Below, piece after piece: positions 4,648 to 44,815 of a stretch of DNA of 48,643 nt. Below the pieces are notes generated by a model. The model did not search any database and had not been told where the DNA came from. It worked only from the letters and a program-made list of their open reading frames with translations. The position numbers and the translations under genes were made by a program. Positions within the stretch are counted from its first letter, which is position 1, and each line of letters starts with the position of its first letter. This DNA comes from a virus, in IMG/VR virus record IMGVR_UViG_3300026531_000004, positions 1 to 48,643 of that record; one strand, written 5' to 3'.

Positions 4648-5103
4648 ATGGCAGTCAGTGGTATAGATACCCAACTGGTAAAAGTGACAGTGGATAATGT
4701 AATTGATGGCGCAGCAGAGGGTTCACCTTCGGAGGTATTATGTGTATTAGAGCTTGGTAACTATAAACAGTCAAGAGCTAAAAAAACATATGCGTGTATG
4801 AGTTCAAACGAATCAACTGTTGGCCTTGGATCTATTACAAGAGATCCTTTGACACTAGGTTTGCTTTATAATGAAGATAATACAGATGGTCAAAAGAAGC
4901 TAAAAGATGCGTTCAACAATAATACTGAAGTAGATGTTGTAATTGAGTTTAACAACACACCAAGTGGTGGTGCGCACGGCACACAAATCAAAGCCAGAGT
5001 GGGTGTAGCTGAGTGGGATATGGCAATGCCCAAAGACTCTAAAATTGAGCTCACATTTTCTCTTGAGTTTAAAGGTGCTGCAGAGGTTGTGGAAGCGGCT
5101 TAA
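4648..5103 (+). CDS. Major tail tube protein
   Basis: The 151-residue protein is a compact beta-rich sequence with a central polar loop and an alternating C-terminal strand (ELTFSLEFKGAAEV), as in tail tube proteins that stack into hexameric rings. It lies between tail terminator and tail chaperones. The start is ATG 4648 behind AAGGAGATGAT, one of the strongest ribosome sites in the operon, and a set of hairpins follows the gene. Both fit a very highly expressed structural protein. Confidence 0.7.
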   Translation: MAVSGIDTQLVKVTVDNVIDGAAEGSPSEVLCVLELGNYKQSRAKKTYACMSSNESTVGLGSITRDPLTLGLLYNEDNTDGQKKLKDAFNNNTEVDVVIEFNNTPSGGAHGTQIKARVGVAEWDMAMPKDSKIELTFSLEFKGAAEVVEAA

Positions 5104-5107
5104 AACA

Positions 5108-5180
5108 GAGACAGACACGTGTGTCTGTTTCAGTGACACCTATTACCTTGTCATAGGTGTCACTGAAGCAGATTTTGCTT
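5108..5180 (+). terminator. Cluster of three hairpins after the tail tube gene
   Basis: First, ACAGACAC/GTGTCTGT near 5111-5128. Second, a perfect 15-bp stem (5129-5143 with 5153-5167, 9-base loop). Third, AAGCA/TGCTT at 5166-5180. No clean T-run follows, so partial termination or 3'-end protection of tail tube mRNA is more likely than full termination, since the chaperone genes downstream have no clear promoter. Confidence 0.55.
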
Positions 5181-5202
5181 GAAATTAGACAAGGATGTTT
5201 AT

Positions 5203-5840: not shown

Positions 5841-8800
5841 TGGCAATTACGATACAAGATCAAGTCATTGTAGATATGAGAGCTGATATCCGTAAATTGA
5901 AAAGAGATTTAGCGGAAGCAGAGGCGGCTACCAAAGCTGCCAATGCCGGTATGCGCGCACAATGGCGAGCAACAGCGGCATCGATAAGATTGACTACTTC
6001 TGAGTTAGTTCGTTTAGGTGTGACGATGTCTGTAACACTAGGAGCACCTGCACTGCACAACATTACCAAACAGGCAGATGAATGGAGTTTATTAGCGAGT
6101 AGAATTAAGTTAGTATCTGATTCTTATGACGAAGCGGCTAAGAAGAGAGAGGTATTATTTGACATAGCGCAGGAAACAAGAACCGATATAGTTAGCTTAA
6201 CTAACCTATATACTAGAATAGCCCGAAATACAAGACAGCTCAATATTGAAGATGAGAAGCGTTTAAAGTTAACGCGTTTAATTGCGAAAGCTCTTATTAT
6301 ATCAGGGGCAGAAACCAGATCAGCTGAAGCGGCATTGGTACAATTTACCCAAGGTTTAGCAGCTAATGCATTGAGAGGACAGGAGTTAAACTCTGTAATG
6401 GAGCAGACACCAAGAATCACACAAGCATTAGCTGATGGTATGGCAGCGGCTGTTAAGAAGAATAAAGAGCTGGCCGGCGTTGTGGCCAGTTCAATGGGTG
6501 TTACTATAGGTGAGTTAAGAAAATTAGCAGAAGAAGGAAAGATAACAACCAAAGTTGTCTTTGACGCTATATTAAGTCAAGAAAAGAAAATTAACGAAGA
6601 GTTTGGACAGATAGTAAAAACAGTAGGCCAGGCAGGTGTACAGTTAAGTAATGCATGGAAACGCTTTATAGGAAACCTAGATCAGTCGATAGGTATGACA
6701 CAATACCTAGTAAGACAAATAAATCTTTTGCGTGACTCATTAAGAGATGAAGATAAGGAATTAAAAGGCTACCAAAATCACTACATAGGTACGATAACAT
6801 CTATTATAGCGTACATAGATAAATCTATCGATGTGCTGTTGTATTTAGGCGTAATGTCTTACAGAGGTTATACAGTCGCGCTAGATTCTGCAGCTTTAAT
6901 AGGTAATGTGTACGCGAATAAGTTATTAACATGGGCTGAGAAATTATCGGCGTTTTTTAGGGAGATCAAACTTAAGGCCAAATTAACCGGTATGGAAATA
7001 GCAAACTCTCTCAGTTTTAAAATAGGTGATGTAGAAGTAATTGGACCAGCTTTCTCTGATAAAGATATTTTAGAAGTTAAAAAAGAAATAGCTAAAGCAG
7101 AAAACACAACTATTACGCGTGAAAGAGAAAGATTAGAATTAATATCGGAGCAGACAAATGCGCTGAGAGACCAATATAACGAATTAGCGTCAATGATAGA
7201 TAGACTGGAAAAGACGGCGGATATAACTGTTGATGACAGGATTAAAGCAATTCAAAAAGCTGCGGAGAAGTATCGAAAAGCTTTAGAGTTTGTACGGAAA
7301 GAAAGTGTGTACCAGCCGAGAGAACCAAAGAATGACCCAGAAAGCAACTTAAACAAAAAAATTGTGAATGGTTTATTAAGACGATATGATACAGAAAAGC
7401 TAGTTAACGACGCAATAGCAGATAGGATAAAATTAGCCGCAGAGCTCAAAGTGTACGAGGAGAAAATTAAAGAATACCCTAAAGTCGAGATTTTGGCCCA
7501 GGCCGATGTCGACGCTACTATGAAGCGTTTGGAGAACATACGCAAAGAAATAAAGCAAGTAAAAAGCATAAAACCTCAAAATTCCGCAACTGCAACCAGA
7601 TTATCGCAGTTGCAGACGGAAGAGCTTAGAATGCGTGTAAAGCTATATAAAATTGAAGAAAACGCACAGCGTAAACAAATTAAACTTCTTCAGCAAGCCG
7701 CCGATTATACAAAACAGATAAGTGACGCCCAAATAGAGCGACAACGAATATCTTTCGAAATAGAAAACATAGATTCAATAGACACATTTGAAGGTAAGAT
7801 ATTAAGTTTGGTAGATGAAGTTGAGCGCTTAAAAGTCGAGTTAAACAGTATTGAGTTTAAACGGTCGGCTTACGAAGCTATAGAAATCAAGAAAGCTGCT
7901 GATCTGGTTAAGTTAGAAGAGCTTAAAACCGACGAAGCTAGAAAACGGTTAGAGTTGGTTAAGAAACAACATGAGCTTGAAAAAACACTCAAACAACCTT
8001 TAGTAGATGCAGCAAAAACATGGGCTGAAGCGTTTTCTAGAACTGGAGAGTTTTCAGAAGCTATAAAAGCGGTGTTAGATAATTTTTTAGCCGATCTCCG
8101 TCAAGGTTCTTACGGTAATTCCGGCCAAGCTGTCGGTTGGTATTTTGCTATACTTCAAGGTCTTGGTGCATACTCGAGAAATCGTGCGGATGAGCGAGAA
8201 CAAAAACTAAAAGGTGAAGTTGAGTTTGATTCTAAAGATTTTCTGGATATGGCGCGTGCTTATGAAACAGCTACTTATCCGTTGTTAGGGGCTGTAAGGG
8301 AGACAAACAAACATTTACAGAATTTAGAGTCCATTTTTGCGTCAACAGCTAAAACAGTTTCGAATACACAACTTACAGACGAACAGGGAAGGGTTTGGCT
8401 TAGCTCATTAACCAGTGATGGTAGTGATAACTATAATTGGAGCGATACAAGCGGATTTTTAGGGTCCGACCATTCTAGCAGGACTTTGATAGATTCAGGT
8501 ATTTTATTAGAGACACAAAGACTGGGCGACCTCATAAACGCCAATACAACAGCTATAAAAGGTTATGTCACAGCTAGATTTGAATCATCTGGTTTTTGGG
8601 GCTGGTTATCCAGCTCATCGACAGGAAGGGAAACTTTTGAACTGCCTCAAGAAGTGCAAGAAGAATTTGCAGCTGCTTTCAATGAAGGTTTCCAAACTAT
8701 TCTAACAGCCGCTGTAGCATTAGGGTACGATGAAGACGACATTCGCCGCGAATTAGAAGACCAGCAAATATCTATAGATTTTACTAGTCTTTACGATTTA

Positions 8801-32273: not shown

Positions 32274-33319
32274 GTCTATTTAAAGAAAAAGAAGCTATTG
32301 AGCCTTGGAATATAACTGATCAAGTTAAAGAGCGCGATGCCAACACGCCTGAACTGGATATGCATATTCCTTGGCTGGATGGAGAAACGGAGGCCACGCC
32401 TGTTAAGCCTCCCATCGACAGAGAAGTCAGTGTGGTCATTGATGCTGACTCTATTTTGTATATGGCCGCACATGTCGGTGATAATAATTATGTTCCTCAA
32501 GAACCTAAGAGATCAGGTAATCTTTTCCAAGACACAGCTGTATCATTGCTAGATGAACAAATAGGTACATTTGACGCTATAATAAGTCGTATATCTAACG
32601 ATGTCGCTGAGAGGTTATCATGGAAAGGTTTAGGTGTAAAAGAAACGACACTACTATTCACGCCTAGGGATGAAGTTAGGCGAGAACACGGGCTGCGACC
32701 TAATTTTCGTTATCAGTTAATGAACGACTATAATGATTTTATGACTGATGTCTATAAGCACATGGACGGGTTCGTCTATACACCTCTAAAAGGATATAAA
32801 GCCAATAGGGTTAATATGCCATCGCCACCAAATGTGGCTGAGATAATGCAACACGCTATTAAGGTACATAAATATATTTTAGCTGATGGTTGTGAAGCGG
32901 ATGATGTAGCTTACAGGCTGAAAATGGATGATCCTGACAATGTTGTATTGTGTGCCATAGACAAAGATATATTAAATGGTACTCCTACTGGTAGTATAGC
33001 ACACTACAACTTTAGAAAAGATACATGGATAACTACCGAAGAGGATGATGCGTGGTTATTTGTGTACAGGCAAGCTTTAATGGGTGATGCTTCAGATGGC
33101 ATACCCGGCATTTATCGTTGCGGAGCTAAAACTGCTGAGAAGATATTACCTACATGGCTGGGTCACGAGGAAAGCTGGCGTGCTGTCTTAGATGAATATC
33201 TTCAGCGCGGTTATACAGAAGAATATGCAGTGTTGATGTTCCGCCTGGTATATCTGGGCCAGTTCACATCAAAGGGCGATATACAATTATGGTCGCCTCA
33301 ATTTACAATAAAAGATTAA
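32270..33319 (+). CDS. 5'-3' exonuclease (FEN/PIN family)
   Basis: The 349-residue protein removes RNA primers or degrades DNA 5' ends. VVIDADSILYMAA supplies the first acidic residues, GCEADDVAY and CAIDKDI the central cluster, and GDASDGIPGIYRCGAKTAEKIL is the helix-hairpin-helix/H3TH segment typical of the family. The start is ATG 32270 in an ATGA overlap; the in-frame start at 32231 lies inside the upstream gene. The first 60 residues ahead of the nuclease core are extra and unassigned. Confidence 0.88.
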   Translation: MSLFKEKEAIEPWNITDQVKERDANTPELDMHIPWLDGETEATPVKPPIDREVSVVIDADSILYMAAHVGDNNYVPQEPKRSGNLFQDTAVSLLDEQIGTFDAIISRISNDVAERLSWKGLGVKETTLLFTPRDEVRREHGLRPNFRYQLMNDYNDFMTDVYKHMDGFVYTPLKGYKANRVNMPSPPNVAEIMQHAIKVHKYILADGCEADDVAYRLKMDDPDNVVLCAIDKDILNGTPTGSIAHYNFRKDTWITTEEDDAWLFVYRQALMGDASDGIPGIYRCGAKTAEKILPTWLGHEESWRAVLDEYLQRGYTEEYAVLMFRLVYLGQFTSKGDIQLWSPQFTIKD

Positions 33320-33360
33320 AAACTACAATGGATTTAAGATAGGTGTAAACACATTTATGG

Positions 33361-33366
33361 TATAAT
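33361..33366 (+). promoter_or_regulatory. Promoter candidate before the 33401 gene
   Basis: TATAAT follows ATGG and continues TATAAATAT. The upstream box at the standard spacing is GTAAA rather than TTMAG, so it is a weaker match. It starts the modification-island side of the genome. Confidence 0.45.
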
Positions 33367-33400
33367 TATAAATATAAAAACAATATAGAAAGGATTTAAA

Positions 33401-34027
33401 ATGAATAAGAACCCGTTGAATACTAAACCAGCAGGGAACCCCCTAACAAGCAAGCCAAGTACTGAAACTAAGCCGGCTGATGCAGGTAAAGTAGTAGAGA
33501 CAAAGCCAAGTACTGAAACTAAGCCGGCTGATGCAGGTAAAGTAGTAGAGACAAAGCCAAGTACTGAAACAACCACCAAACCGAAAAGAGACTATGTTGG
33601 TACACCAAACGAGGTGTTTTTAGAGATTTTACCTGATGAGAGAATTTCAAGACACAAAGCATTGAAGCTGGTTAGAGATTTAGGATTATCTTGTTCTCAA
33701 GCAAGAATGGCTGAGATCATCGAGCTTAAATACGGACCAGAACCAGAGAGAGAAAAGAAAAACAAAAACACATCGACTAGTAAAATCGAAAGAGAAAAAA
33801 AGAGAAAAGAGGCAGAGGAAAAAGCATTGGCTATCGTAAGAGCTAAGCGTGAAGCAGCTAAGAAAGGAGAACCCGTAGATGGTTACAAGGCGGAAGTATA
33901 TGTAGCTGCAGAAGATCCTGCAATCAAAACAAGTGATGACTCTAAACTTGATGAAAAGGCTAAAGATCCTAAGTCAGGTGATGACTCCAAACCTACTGAA
34001 AAAACAAAAGATTCTAAGTCAATATAA
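33401..34027 (+). CDS. Lys/Glu-rich protein with 17-residue repeats and HTH-like module
   Basis: The 208-residue protein starts with two exact 17-residue repeats plus a partial one (KPSTETKPADAGKVVET), a flexible Pro/Thr/Lys linker. Residues about 66-110 (EVFLEILPDERISRHKALKL, then VRDLGLSCSQARMAEIIELK) resemble the HTH-like module in the 29598 and 43861 genes. The C-terminal half is strongly basic and then acidic (DDSKLDEKAKDPKSGDDSKP). A DNA-associated or nucleoid-like role is possible. The DNA repeat is identical at all third positions, so it is recent. Confidence 0.6.
   Translation: MNKNPLNTKPAGNPLTSKPSTETKPADAGKVVETKPSTETKPADAGKVVETKPSTETTTKPKRDYVGTPNEVFLEILPDERISRHKALKLVRDLGLSCSQARMAEIIELKYGPEPEREKKNKNTSTSKIEREKKRKEAEEKALAIVRAKREAAKKGEPVDGYKAEVYVAAEDPAIKTSDDSKLDEKAKDPKSGDDSKPTEKTKDSKSI
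33452..33570 (+). repeat. 51-bp in-frame tandem repeat
   Basis: Two exact 51-base copies (33452-33502, 33503-33553) and a 17-base partial third copy. The period is a multiple of three, so copy number can change without breaking the frame. Confidence 0.9.
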
Positions 34028-34030
34028 TGA

Positions 34031-34269
34031 CTTAACCGCTTCGGCGGTAAGTGTTCAAAACAGGGCAGCACAGTTACCCATCAACTGATATCTCTTCCCC
34101 TATTCCGGCTGCCCTGCTTTGAGTACTTACTTGTTAATGTGTTTAGATAAGCGCGAGCGCTAAGTGTCAGTTAATTTTCCTTTCTTGTAAGTACTCAACC
34201 ATATGGGCCTTAAGCATAGTAGCGATGCAGTGAGTGCCATCACGAGCCTGGTGCCATTCCAGGAAGGCC
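34031..34269 (+). ncRNA. Candidate structured RNA (about 240 nt) before the 34310 gene
   Basis: Four stems lie in a row in a 282-base gene-free stretch. Stem 1 (34031-34051) has a TTCG loop on CCGC/GCGG. Stem 2 pairs CAGGGCAGC (34061-34069) with GCTGCCCTG (34108-34116) and encloses CAGTT/AACTG. Stem 3 pairs GAGTACTTAC (34121-34130) with GTAAGTACTC (34187-34196). Stem 4 is a cloverleaf (34206-34269). No clear terminator follows, so it may be a 5' leader of the downstream gene or a processed RNA. No known family was recognised. Confidence 0.6.
34206..34269 (+). ncRNA. tRNA-like cloverleaf
   Basis: A 6-bp closing stem (GGCCTT 34206-34211 with AAGGCC 34264-34269) holds three arms with tRNA-like spacing: GCAT/ATGC with a 7-base loop, GTGA/TCAC with a 6-base loop, and CCTGG/CCAGG with a 7-base loop directly next to the closing stem. 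D-loop GG, a 7-base anticodon loop and the T-loop TTC are missing, so it is not a working tRNA. It may be a tRNA mimic or a degenerate tRNA. Confidence 0.5.
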
Positions 34270-34270
34270 G

Positions 34271-34297
34271 ACTAAATAAACTAGATAAACTAGAGAA
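34271..34297 (+). repeat. Triple 9-base repeat ahead of a ribosome site
   Basis: ACTAAATAA, ACTAGATAA, ACTAGAGAA in tandem, followed at once by ACGGAG and ATG 34310. It is unpaired and A-rich, so it may keep the ribosome site accessible. Confidence 0.6.
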
Positions 34298-34309
34298 ACG
34301 GAGTACATA

Positions 34310-34816
34310 ATGGCTTTATTTAAAGAACAAGAAGTGTTGAATCAAAATCAACATAAACAAATTCCTCTACAAGAGCTGCCGATCAATACATCGATTGGTT
34401 TTTATTTTGACAACACTAAAGAGGCCACCAGTCAAGAGTACGGCGATTTTACAGTGTGTCAAGGTTTAGAGGTTGATTTATCTTCACAGACAGTAGATGA
34501 ACTAATTGAGACAGCACAACCAGCTAGTTTCATTCCGAATACACTGCTTCTTAATAAACTATCATCAGGTGCGATGATTCCTGGCGAAGTATATAGAATT
34601 GAGAAGGTGTGGGATAGATTCCAAAAGTTCAAAGACGGTACAAAAGCAAAAGGTTACGGCTATGCATTATTCCATCAAGAGGTAGGACCTCAGGTAAAAA
34701 GTAAACTAGCTGCGGCTTACAAACAAAAAATAGCTGCTGCGTTCAACGCCTCAGAAACTCCTGCTGATGAAGCAAGCTCAGAAGTTGACACAAACACAGA
34801 CAAACCAGCAGTTTAA
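34310..34816 (+). CDS. Unknown protein, possible single-stranded DNA-binding protein
   Basis: The 168-residue protein has a beta-rich core (TSIGFYFDN, GEVYRIEKVWDRFQKFKDGTKAKGYGYALFHQEV at about 93-126) and an acidic disordered tail (DEASSEVDTNTDKPAV). That profile, plus the lack of any other recognisable SSB in a genome with its own polymerase, makes an OB-fold SSB an attractive guess, but no motif proves it. The leader carries the structured RNA and the ribosome site GGAG. Confidence 0.5.
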   Translation: MALFKEQEVLNQNQHKQIPLQELPINTSIGFYFDNTKEATSQEYGDFTVCQGLEVDLSSQTVDELIETAQPASFIPNTLLLNKLSSGAMIPGEVYRIEKVWDRFQKFKDGTKAKGYGYALFHQEVGPQVKSKLAAAYKQKIAAAFNASETPADEASSEVDTNTDKPAV

Positions 34817-34822
34817 AAAAAT

Positions 34823-34852
34823 CCACTCTTCGGAGTGGCGTGACCAACCACG
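34823..34852 (+). terminator. Two stacked hairpins after the 34310 gene
   Basis: CCACTC-TTCG-GAGTGG (34823-34838) is a perfect 6-bp stem with a stable TTCG loop. CGTG/CACG (34839-34852) follows directly. There is no T-run, so mRNA end protection or processing is more likely than termination. Confidence 0.5.
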
Positions 34853-34873
34853 AACAAAACATAAGGAAAAATC

Positions 34874-35527
34874 ATGAATAACAAAAGTAACGATGTTAAC
34901 GGTAAACATTACGCTTCACTTGGCATATCTCCATTCGAGTATAGTTTCGCCAATAAACTAGATTGCTACCAGCACACAGCCATTAAATACATTACGAGAC
35001 ATGCCGATAAAGGAGGAATCGCCGACATCGACAAAGCCATAAAGACTTTGGAGCTATATAAAGAAGCGTTGGACAATACACAAACAACATGTGATGATAA
35101 ACCGGCGGAGATAGAAGCATTAAACAACTTAATTAATTCTGTTAAAGGTATTTATAAGAACAGAGGTATCGAGATCACTCATGTATTCTCTATAGGGCGC
35201 GGTGGTGCTTGGGCAGCGGCCCAAATAGCTTATGCGCTAGATGTACAGTGTGACATTGTAGATTCACTAGATCTTTTTGACGATGCCGGAGCGAGTTTAG
35301 GTGAAGGTTCTTTGTTTGTGGATGATATATGTGACACAGGCGAGACAATATATAAGGTTAAAAAAGAATACCCTGAAGTGCTTACAGCTGTTTTATTTAA
35401 CAGAGCTGACGATTATGTCAAAGTTAAAAAAGCAGCTAGACCGGATTATTTTGGTTCAATGATATGGCATAACGAATATGTTGAAATGCCTATATCACAA
35501 TACGCAGATGCAAACAACAACAAATAA
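34874..35527 (+). CDS. DUF3310-phosphoribosyltransferase fusion protein
   Basis: Residues about 7-68 match the DUF3310 pattern of phage proteins (HY near the start, then CYQHTAIKYITRHADKGG, then DIDKAIKTLELY). Residues about 85-205 form a type I phosphoribosyltransferase: FSIGRGGAWAAAQIAYAL and the PRPP-binding loop LFVDDICDTGETI (about 154-166), where DD and TGET contact ribose phosphate. The base substrate cannot be told; purine or 7-deazapurine salvage is a guess from the neighbouring deazaguanine genes. The start lies behind ATAAGGAAAAATC. Confidence 0.75.
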   Translation: MNNKSNDVNGKHYASLGISPFEYSFANKLDCYQHTAIKYITRHADKGGIADIDKAIKTLELYKEALDNTQTTCDDKPAEIEALNNLINSVKGIYKNRGIEITHVFSIGRGGAWAAAQIAYALDVQCDIVDSLDLFDDAGASLGEGSLFVDDICDTGETIYKVKKEYPEVLTAVLFNRADDYVKVKKAARPDYFGSMIWHNEYVEMPISQYADANNNK

Positions 35528-39958: not shown

Positions 39959-39984
39959 AGATAAATTAGTAAAACTCAAAAATA

Positions 39985-40035
39985 CGAGATTCCACCTTTA
40001 AAGCATACTAATGTATAGCTAACTGCGGAATCTCG
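39985..40035. repeat. Nested palindromic element C (diverged)
   Basis: Outer arms CGAGATTCC (39985-39993) and GGAATCTCG (40027-40035) are perfect. The left arm has lost the CCGC of other copies (ATTCCACC). Its reverse complement shares GTATGC-TTTAAAG with elements A, D and E. It lies between folE and the helicase gene. Confidence 0.65.
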
Positions 40036-40087
40036 CAAATACGCCTAAATATGTGCGCTTAAATACTATATTAATAGGAGTTAAAAT

Positions 40088-41772: not shown

Positions 41773-41839
41773 AAAAATTCCGTTGTCAATTTCAGGTACC
41801 TGAAGCCAAAAAACATTCCGCTTTATCTTCCTGAAATTG
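41771..41839. repeat. Inverted-repeat site closing the early block
   Basis: The 26 bases 41771-41796 are the reverse complement of 25968-25992 except for one extra base. Locally CAATTTCAGG (41787-41796) also pairs with CCTGAAATTG (41830-41839). An ATTCCGC half-site of the dispersed palindromes lies between. Confidence 0.75.
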
Positions 41840-41967
41840 AATGGTATGTCCCATAAAATAACGCTTTATGAAGGGGTGAAACCGAGTAAATGTTTTATTT
41901 TTACTATTTATACTTTTTTCACCCCATTTAAACGGTGAGAAGCCTCTTTGAAAATGATGGTGGCGAT

Positions 41968-43860: not shown

Positions 43861-44226
43861 TTATTTTTTAGCCGCTGTTGTTGTTTTCAGTTTTTTCTCA
43901 AGTGCAGCTAACTTCCGCTGCAATGCTGCTTTTTCTTTTTCAGCTTTTTCTAACTTAGCTTTTTCATCTTTACTGAGTGTTTCTTTTAATGCTTCGATTT
44001 TATCTTTCTCTAAGGCTGCATTTATCTTATCAAATAATTTAAACACTCTAGATTGTGAAATCGAATAATTCTCTTTTCGCAAATCTTTTATTATTCTGCT
44101 GCGCGTAATCTGGCCGTCAGCTTTCATCGCTGCAACAATATAATCATACAGTTCTACTTCAGTTAAAGTTTTCTTATTTTTCATAGCCGCTTCAATCTCG
44201 CTTCGAAGTTTGTCTAAGTGTGTCAT
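43861..44226 (-). CDS. Putative small regulator: HTH-like module plus coiled coil
   Basis: The 121-residue protein has a helical N-terminal part with DGQITRSRIIKDLRKENYSI and SQSRVFKLFDKI (about 36-68), aligning with the HTH-like modules of the 29598 and 33401 genes, and a long C-terminal coiled coil (about 70-118, Lys/Glu/Ala). A coiled-coil dimer binding DNA is a fair guess. It is divergent from 44522, and its leader and first two codons are a mirror copy of that gene's leader. Confidence 0.6.
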   Translation of the reverse strand: MTHLDKLRSEIEAAMKNKKTLTEVELYDYIVAAMKADGQITRSRIIKDLRKENYSISQSRVFKLFDKINAALEKDKIEALKETLSKDEKAKLEKAEKEKAALQRKLAALEKKLKTTTAAKK

Positions 44227-44296
44227 GTCATTTTCCTTTAAGTTAATTTAATTTATATAAAGATTAAATCGTGATGTTTTATTCTTTATATAATAT

Positions 44297-44318
44297 ATTA
44301 TATCATAAATCGCCTGAA
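44297..44318 (-). promoter_or_regulatory. Leftward promoter of the 43861 gene (TTCAG-N11-TATAAT)
   Basis: Minus-strand TTCAG (44318-44314), 11 bases, TATAAT (44302-44297). GTGTAGA precedes TTCAG, as at the 36961 promoter. Confidence 0.7.
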
Positions 44319-44349
44319 TCTACACTTAAATATGCATCATTTTAATAAA

Positions 44350-44409
44350 TTTATCGATTTAATTTTTTTATCGTTCGGCGTGTTATCATAAAAAAATTAA
44401 ATCGATAAA
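44350..44409. repeat. Nested 22-bp inverted repeat
   Basis: 44350-44371 and 44388-44409 are perfect reverse complements (core ATCGATTTAATTTTTTTAT) with a 16-base loop containing TTCGGCG. It lies between the two divergent promoters, offset by 5-6 bases from the centre of the larger repeat, and could bind a shared regulator or form a cruciform. Confidence 0.9.
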
Positions 44410-44429
44410 CGGCTAATTTTCAGTGTGAT

Positions 44430-44451
44430 TTAAGCAACATTATGATATAAT
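44430..44451 (+). promoter_or_regulatory. Rightward promoter of the 44522 gene (TTAAG-N11-TATAAT)
   Basis: TTAAG (44430-44434), 11 bases, TATAAT (44446-44451), then ATTATATAAAG. It is the mirror partner of the leftward promoter at 44297. Confidence 0.7.
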
Positions 44452-44521
44452 ATATTATATAAAGAATAAAACATCACGATTTAATCTTTATATAAATTAA
44501 ATTAACTTAAAGGAAAATGAC

Positions 44522-44815
44522 ATGACACGATTAGATTTCACATCTGAAACATTATTGAAAGAGAGAGCGATCATTGAGGTTGAAAGATTAATTGCAGATA
44601 GATTAGATCAAACTGAAGATGAGATTCTTATTTATATCAATGATAAGCTTAGATATTCAGTTATAATTAACAACGATGAAACTTTTCTGTACGATTCATC
44701 TGAGAATGGCAAATTAATATTAATTGACACTTTCTTAAATATGGCTGAAGATCGTATTGCAAATATAATTTCAGATTATATTATAGATGATGAGATGGAG
44801 CTGAACGCTATATAG
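44522..44815 (+). CDS. Small acidic protein of unknown function
   Basis: The 97-residue protein is acidic and beta-alpha in pattern (ILIYINDKLRYSVIINNDETFLYDSSE in the middle). No family was recognised. It shares its promoter, leader and first codons, inverted, with the 43861 gene, so the pair should be expressed together. Acidic size and early-type promoter are compatible with a host-takeover or anti-defence protein, but this is only a guess. Confidence 0.65.
   Translation: MTRLDFTSETLLKERAIIEVERLIADRLDQTEDEILIYINDKLRYSVIINNDETFLYDSSENGKLILIDTFLNMAEDRIANIISDYIIDDEMELNAI

Follow-up and report, generated by a model that had tools for sequence, protein, structure and literature searches.

The 282 bases that follow the stop codon at 34027 and precede the ATG of gene 34310 in this virus record (48,643 bases, the whole of which we call the window) form a genuine structured leader of an ordinary kind. 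Our preferred reading, to which we give a probability of about 0.4, is that they act in cis as the mRNA leader of gene 34310 and probably set the output of a replication protein, a probable single-stranded DNA-binding protein (SSB), possibly through autorepression resembling that of gp32. The leader lies directly before this gene, contains stems and a ribosome-binding run that is predicted to be unpaired, folds more strongly as the coding strand than as its complement, and belongs to an association of folded leaders with SSB genes that is a useful result in itself. Control of expression, and autorepression, by the leader are what we infer. The tempting tRNA-like reading of the stretch is corrected by our analysis, and gene 34310 gains a likely function.

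The proposed mechanism divides the leader into two parts. The strong stem of the 5′ part could be processed, or could serve for landing or insulation, and the 3′ part, a mostly unpaired A-rich repeat, would hold the ribosome-binding site. SSB present in excess over single-stranded DNA would then occupy the A-rich single-stranded part of the leader and shut out ribosomes, as T4 gp32 does.

Stems and stability of the gene-free stretch

The record carries genes for a family A DNA polymerase, an exonuclease, QueD, QueE, QueC and GTP cyclohydrolase. The initial annotation was right that the stretch (Table 1) is free of credible genes. It had also placed it just before a modification island, but the immediate downstream gene is the SSB-like one, and modification-associated genes begin about 570 bases downstream. 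They are led by gene 34874-35527, the protein of which has PHROG matches to a nucleotide kinase in its first part and to a phosphoribosyltransferase domain in its second.

Table 1. Elements of the leader and the genes on either side (window coordinates)
Feature	Positions	Strand	Remarks
Upstream gene, 208 aa, no family	33401-34027	+	L009 and L010 have the same neighbour
Gene-free leader or intercistronic stretch	34028-34309	+	
UUCG-capped hairpin just past the upstream stop	34036-34047	+	
Arm A of main stem	34047-34069	+	
Arm A′ of main stem	34108-34130	+	Pairing probability with A 0.84-1.0 except one A-C mismatch
Arm A″	34187-34198	+	Perfect 12-nt complement of 34119-34130; competes with A
Four-way junction ("cloverleaf"), 64 nt	34206-34269	+	Connectors of 2, 1, 3 and 0 nt
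A-rich 9-nt tandem repeat (TAAACTAGA units)	34277-34303	+	Ends in GGAG Shine-Dalgarno; mostly unpaired
Probable OB-fold, SSB-like protein, 168 aa	34310-34816	+	Gene to which the leader belongs

Four well-formed stems had been described in the stretch. All are present, but they are partly incompatible, as the arm 34119-34130 is needed both for the 12-bp stem and for the outer half of the 23-nt one, and only 34028-34130 folds better than shuffled sequence. The whole stretch was only marginally more stable than its dinucleotide shuffles (z -1.6 to -1.8; 6 of 200 and 29 of 500 as good). The part 34028-34130 was clearly non-random, with none of 200 and none of 300 shuffles folding as well, whereas 34131-34309 was at chance level (216 of 300 as good). 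Arms A and A′ make up a 23-nt inverted repeat with 87% complementarity; the segment 34034-34052, which holds the UUCG hairpin, was equalled in folding by 2 of 200 shuffles. We found no terminator-like site on the + strand of 34028-34309.

The mean predicted probability of being unpaired was 0.62 in the last 40 nt of the leader against 0.40 upstream of them, and the unpaired A-rich repeats over the ribosome-binding site that mark gene 32-type leaders are found in the window at 34277-34303. Upstream segments can pair with the Shine-Dalgarno sequence over 6-7 bp in all three phages compared below, an observation made without a chance comparison and not relied on here.

Several further features of the window were noted. 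A second UUCG hairpin lies directly past the stop of gene 34310 (34823-34838), like the one after gene 33401, and is a terminator-like site when read on the minus strand. Gene 33401-34027 contains direct repeats and its copy in the related locus L010 (13227-14003) has short tandem repeats at the end; given these repeat-rich stretches, the end of the reading frame may drift fast. Strong hairpins occur in many other gaps of the window, and in several the structure is strong on either strand (5104-5202, 39959-40087 and 41773-41934 among them). The first of these, between co-directional genes, is a 23-nt inverted repeat with a 3-nt loop. The gap 44213-44535, with 20% G+C and between divergent genes, holds a 118-nt inverted repeat of 90% complementarity with nested inverted repeats inside (z about -27 to -30 for either strand), and is possibly an origin or a very large hairpin.

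The leader in related phages and the gene it precedes

A search with a polymerase alignment returned 78 loci, including L009 and L010, whose polymerases are 64% and 59% identical to that of the window phage. The three have a common gene order: polymerase, exonuclease, the 33401 family, the gap, the 34310 family, a phosphoribosyltransferase-like gene and modification genes. Later alignment scans with 34310 and 33401 added only L091 and found L009, L010 and L012 again. A TerL search gave one near relative, L002, the 26-kb record of which has no match to 33401-35527. Scans of viral contigs with the single proteins of gene 34310 and the polymerase, and a scan of genome contigs, gave no match, and 33000-35500 showed no DNA similarity to named phages.

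The gaps of L009 and L010 are strongly structured (none of 500 shuffles as good in each). In all three leaders the coding strand outfolds its complement, with z of -1.62 against -0.60 in the window, -4.00 against -1.29 in L009 and -4.92 against -2.03 in L010. The main stem measures 23 nt with one mismatch in the window, 15 bp in L009 and 21 bp in L010, and includes G-U pairs (3, 4 and 3 in the three phages), which are usable in RNA only. Neither the last 130 nt of the L009 leader nor the L012 leader shows an unusual degree of structure. The leader sequences of the three phages are unalignable except around the ribosome-binding site, and their consensus fold reaches only -3.8 kcal/mol; with only two relatives having the same locus, a formal covariation test of the pairing is impossible. 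The strong stem and the unpaired ribosome-binding region (mean unpaired probability of the last 40 nt 0.60 in both L009 and L010) keep their place across the three phages, but the cloverleaf does not.

The A-rich repeat is the part that the window has in common with L010 at the DNA level. UAAA occurs three times within the last 45 nt in each of these two phages; L009 has none there, and AACT is absent as well. Only three stretches of viral contigs matched the 22-base repeat pattern, and one of these lies in L010's own contig. We first assumed that the 9-nt repeat was a conserved operator, a view weakened by its occurrence in the unrelated contigs L093 and L095. Since in these the same tandem repeat precedes the start codon of a phage gene that is unrelated (4869-4890 and 7861-7882, respectively), it may be a general aid to translation initiation.

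The 34310 family has no family match, and weak PHROG hits were seen for one member each (E 0.011 and E 0.35). The AlphaFold model of the protein is middling (pLDDT 71). Its top Foldseek rows are mostly OB-fold binders of single-stranded DNA (best E 1.3e-3), namely RPA, PrgE, PRD1 P12, Pf3 SSB and Sulfolobus SSB, with E between about 1e-3 and 1e-2 and a TM near 0.3, and a second structure aligner gave Z of at most 7 (PRD1 P12 5.3, LEF-3 5.3, RPA70N 5.1). These weak similarities suggest that the modelled protein probably has an OB fold. A sequence match to the Aureispira grappling-hook protein (E 3e-10 over the whole chain, with no single stretch significant) looks like a repeat artefact.

Gene neighbourhoods point to a function. 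In L012 and L091 the 34310 homologue lies directly before the polymerase, the slot that an Enc34-type SSB occupies in KF-1-like phages and in L014. The 34310 family was found in 5 distinct records and the Enc34-type SSB in 55 loci (near-duplicates counted), never both together, in a set of often partial loci where 26 of the 89 with a polymerase hit have neither; the same mutual exclusion is seen in 16 whole records. The Enc34-type SSB was called with our own alignment, as Pfam PF10991 lacked the sensitivity for it (none of 16 records passed the cut-off). This gene replacement suggests that gene 34310 encodes the SSB, in place of the Enc34/T7-type protein. In L012, moreover, the nuclease and the following gene overlap, and the modification genes have no hairpin array in front of them, which argues that the leader goes with the SSB-like gene.

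Leaders of the Enc34-type SSB genes show the same tendency. We took 44 of them from fetched loci and folded the 130 nt before each start. The coding strand outfolded the complement in 34 of the 44 (Wilcoxon 1.6e-6; mean z -1.54, compared with -0.62 for the complement). A strong hairpin in the right range was present in 57% of SSB leaders and in 36% of the 181 controls (p 0.002 when hairpin scores were compared by rank). The loci are related, so that these p-values overstate independence. Control leaders (the first 70 of 219) had no strand bias (-1.15 against -0.93, p 0.22). The last 45 nt of the SSB leaders are A-rich and G-poor, and contain AACT in 31 of 44 cases against 85 of 219 controls.

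Alternative readings of the stems

The initial annotation had proposed a structured RNA with a tRNA-like cloverleaf, and named a tRNA mimic and a decoy among its possible roles. The structured leader holds up, as a hairpin-rich stretch that is stronger on the coding strand is found in L009 and L010 too; the tRNA-like part does not. That the four-way junction is a tRNA mimic, a tRNA remnant or a decoy would fit its arm spacing (2, 1, 3 and 0 nt), its last arm of 5 bp with a 7-nt loop, and its rank when a sliding scan was run over the two strands of the window: of the 21 four-way folds, that at 34206-34269 was the most stable. We nevertheless regard this as very improbable. The segment is no more stable than shuffles (35 of 300 and 20 of 200 equally stable), and four-way folds closed by at least 5 pairs arose in 12 of 2000 shuffled 73-mers. 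ARAGORN found no tRNA gene in the window, and Rfam at gathering score had no match in the window or in 8 loci; under relaxed settings Rfam returned nothing above threshold, its weaker matches being mostly of microRNA type and on the hairpin. The last loop, UGCCAUU, lacks the T-loop consensus. At the same place before the A-rich run, L009 has a three-way junction and L010 a plain 10-bp hairpin, so the pairing is not kept through sequence change, as the low consensus energy of the three-phage alignment also indicates. The cloverleaf is thus most likely a product of chance rather than a new tRNA-like RNA, and is without a shown role.

The main rival to the SSB-leader reading is processing by RNase III or RNase E combined with an mRNA-stabilizing site, in which the A-A′ stem would be cut and a short 5′ stem left on the SSB mRNA, with no autorepression. 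It would fit the long main stems of the window and L010, the 15-bp stem of L009, which is however short for RNase III, and the position of these stems between co-directional genes, where their sequence can drift freely. Reference titles of PMC3014915 mention RNase processing upstream of gene 32. We rate this rival as rather unlikely, and as somewhat less probable than the SSB-leader reading, with which it may coexist. Ordinary intergenic hairpins acting at the level of DNA or transcription (terminators, palindromic protein sites, cruciform-prone DNA) are a less probable source of the stems. Strong structure on both strands is seen in several other gaps of the window and in its main stem, which is almost equally strong on the other strand (z -4.57 and -3.93), but the + strand of the leader has no terminator-like site, its stems include G-U pairs, and the coding-strand bias extends to all three whole leaders and to most of the Enc34-type SSB leaders. 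A riboswitch had also been suggested; it might respond to a metabolite, such as a queuosine precursor, and control the modification genes. Those genes do begin within about 570 bases, and the leader has two mutually exclusive helices; a riboswitch, however, needs a conserved pocket, and none is seen in the sequences of the three phages, Rfam gave no match, the gene directly downstream is SSB-like, and in L012 the nuclease and modification genes leave no gap for such an element. We therefore hold this reading to be scarcely credible. The part of the literature on 7-deazaguanine phages that was covered contained nothing relevant on structured RNA.

The two exclusive helices deserve separate mention. 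Arm A′ of the window can pair with A or with A″; in the predicted ensemble A-A′ dominates, and A′-A″ has a probability of at most 0.04 at equilibrium. In L010 a perfect 9-bp helix overlaps the 21-bp stem by six bases of its 3′ arm, and L009 presents a weaker case. When the main stem was held fixed and the rest shuffled, the competing helix was matched in 2 of 300 shuffles for the window, 17 of 300 for L010 and 74 of 300 for L009, and is convincing only in the window. The helices of the window and L010 are suggestive of a processing switch, no more. In such a switch A′ would pair first with A in the long stem; cleavage within or close to this stem, or the occupation of A, would free the outer half of A′ for A″, and the A′-A″ pairing would become a new 5′ stem on the SSB mRNA, altering its life or its translation. 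SSB binding to the A-rich run would close an autorepression loop. That the leader is a processing-coupled switch of this kind, built on the same plan across the SSB leaders of the phage group, seems to us improbable; if true, it would mean one plan across a large group of phages, despite leader sequences that are unrelated and SSBs of two families that are likewise unrelated.

Comparison with known leaders and processing sites

T7-type RNase III processing sites are long stems between co-directional early genes, and their sequence is not conserved. The window resembles them in its long stem between co-directional genes and in the lack of sequence conservation, but differs in having the competing third arm A″, and cleavage here is putative.

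The closest parallel to the preferred reading, a leader through which an SSB would limit its own synthesis, is the gene 32 operator of T4 and RB69. Two papers (PMC535899, PMC3014915) describe a structured 5′ element followed by unpaired UUAAA/UAAA repeats over the ribosome-binding site in T4, and a similar layout with diverged sequence in RB69. The window is alike in serving a putative SSB and in placing a folded 5′ element before an unpaired A-rich run of UAAA units that includes the ribosome-binding site, and its group is alike in keeping the layout while the sequence drifts. The hairpin array of the window is, however, much larger, its protein has no family match, repression is putative and L009 lacks UAAA. 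H-type pseudoknots are also not enriched as a group trend among the window, L009, L010, L012 and L091: a candidate stands out only in L010 (none of 40 shuffles as high), where it is carried mainly by its first stem, and the score was matched by 62% of 40 shuffles in the window, 40% in L009, 58% in L012 and 78% in L091.

The leaders of Enc34/T7-type SSB genes (PF10991, formerly DUF2815; KF-1-like phages) differ from the window in that the SSB comes from another protein family and the structure often consists of one or two simple hairpins. A candidate RNA motif has been reported before DUF2815 genes. No paper in the collection searched links DUF2815 with an RNA motif, and the main text of the Enc34 SSB paper (PMC5686142) reports no regulation and does not bring up RNA, translation, an operator or a leader. 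Like the window, these leaders have coding-strand-biased folding upstream and an A-rich ribosome-binding run, theirs containing AACT. The comparison thus yields a general idea that can be tested, namely that SSB genes of two families without detected sequence similarity follow leaders that are folded but leave an A-rich ribosome-binding site unpaired.
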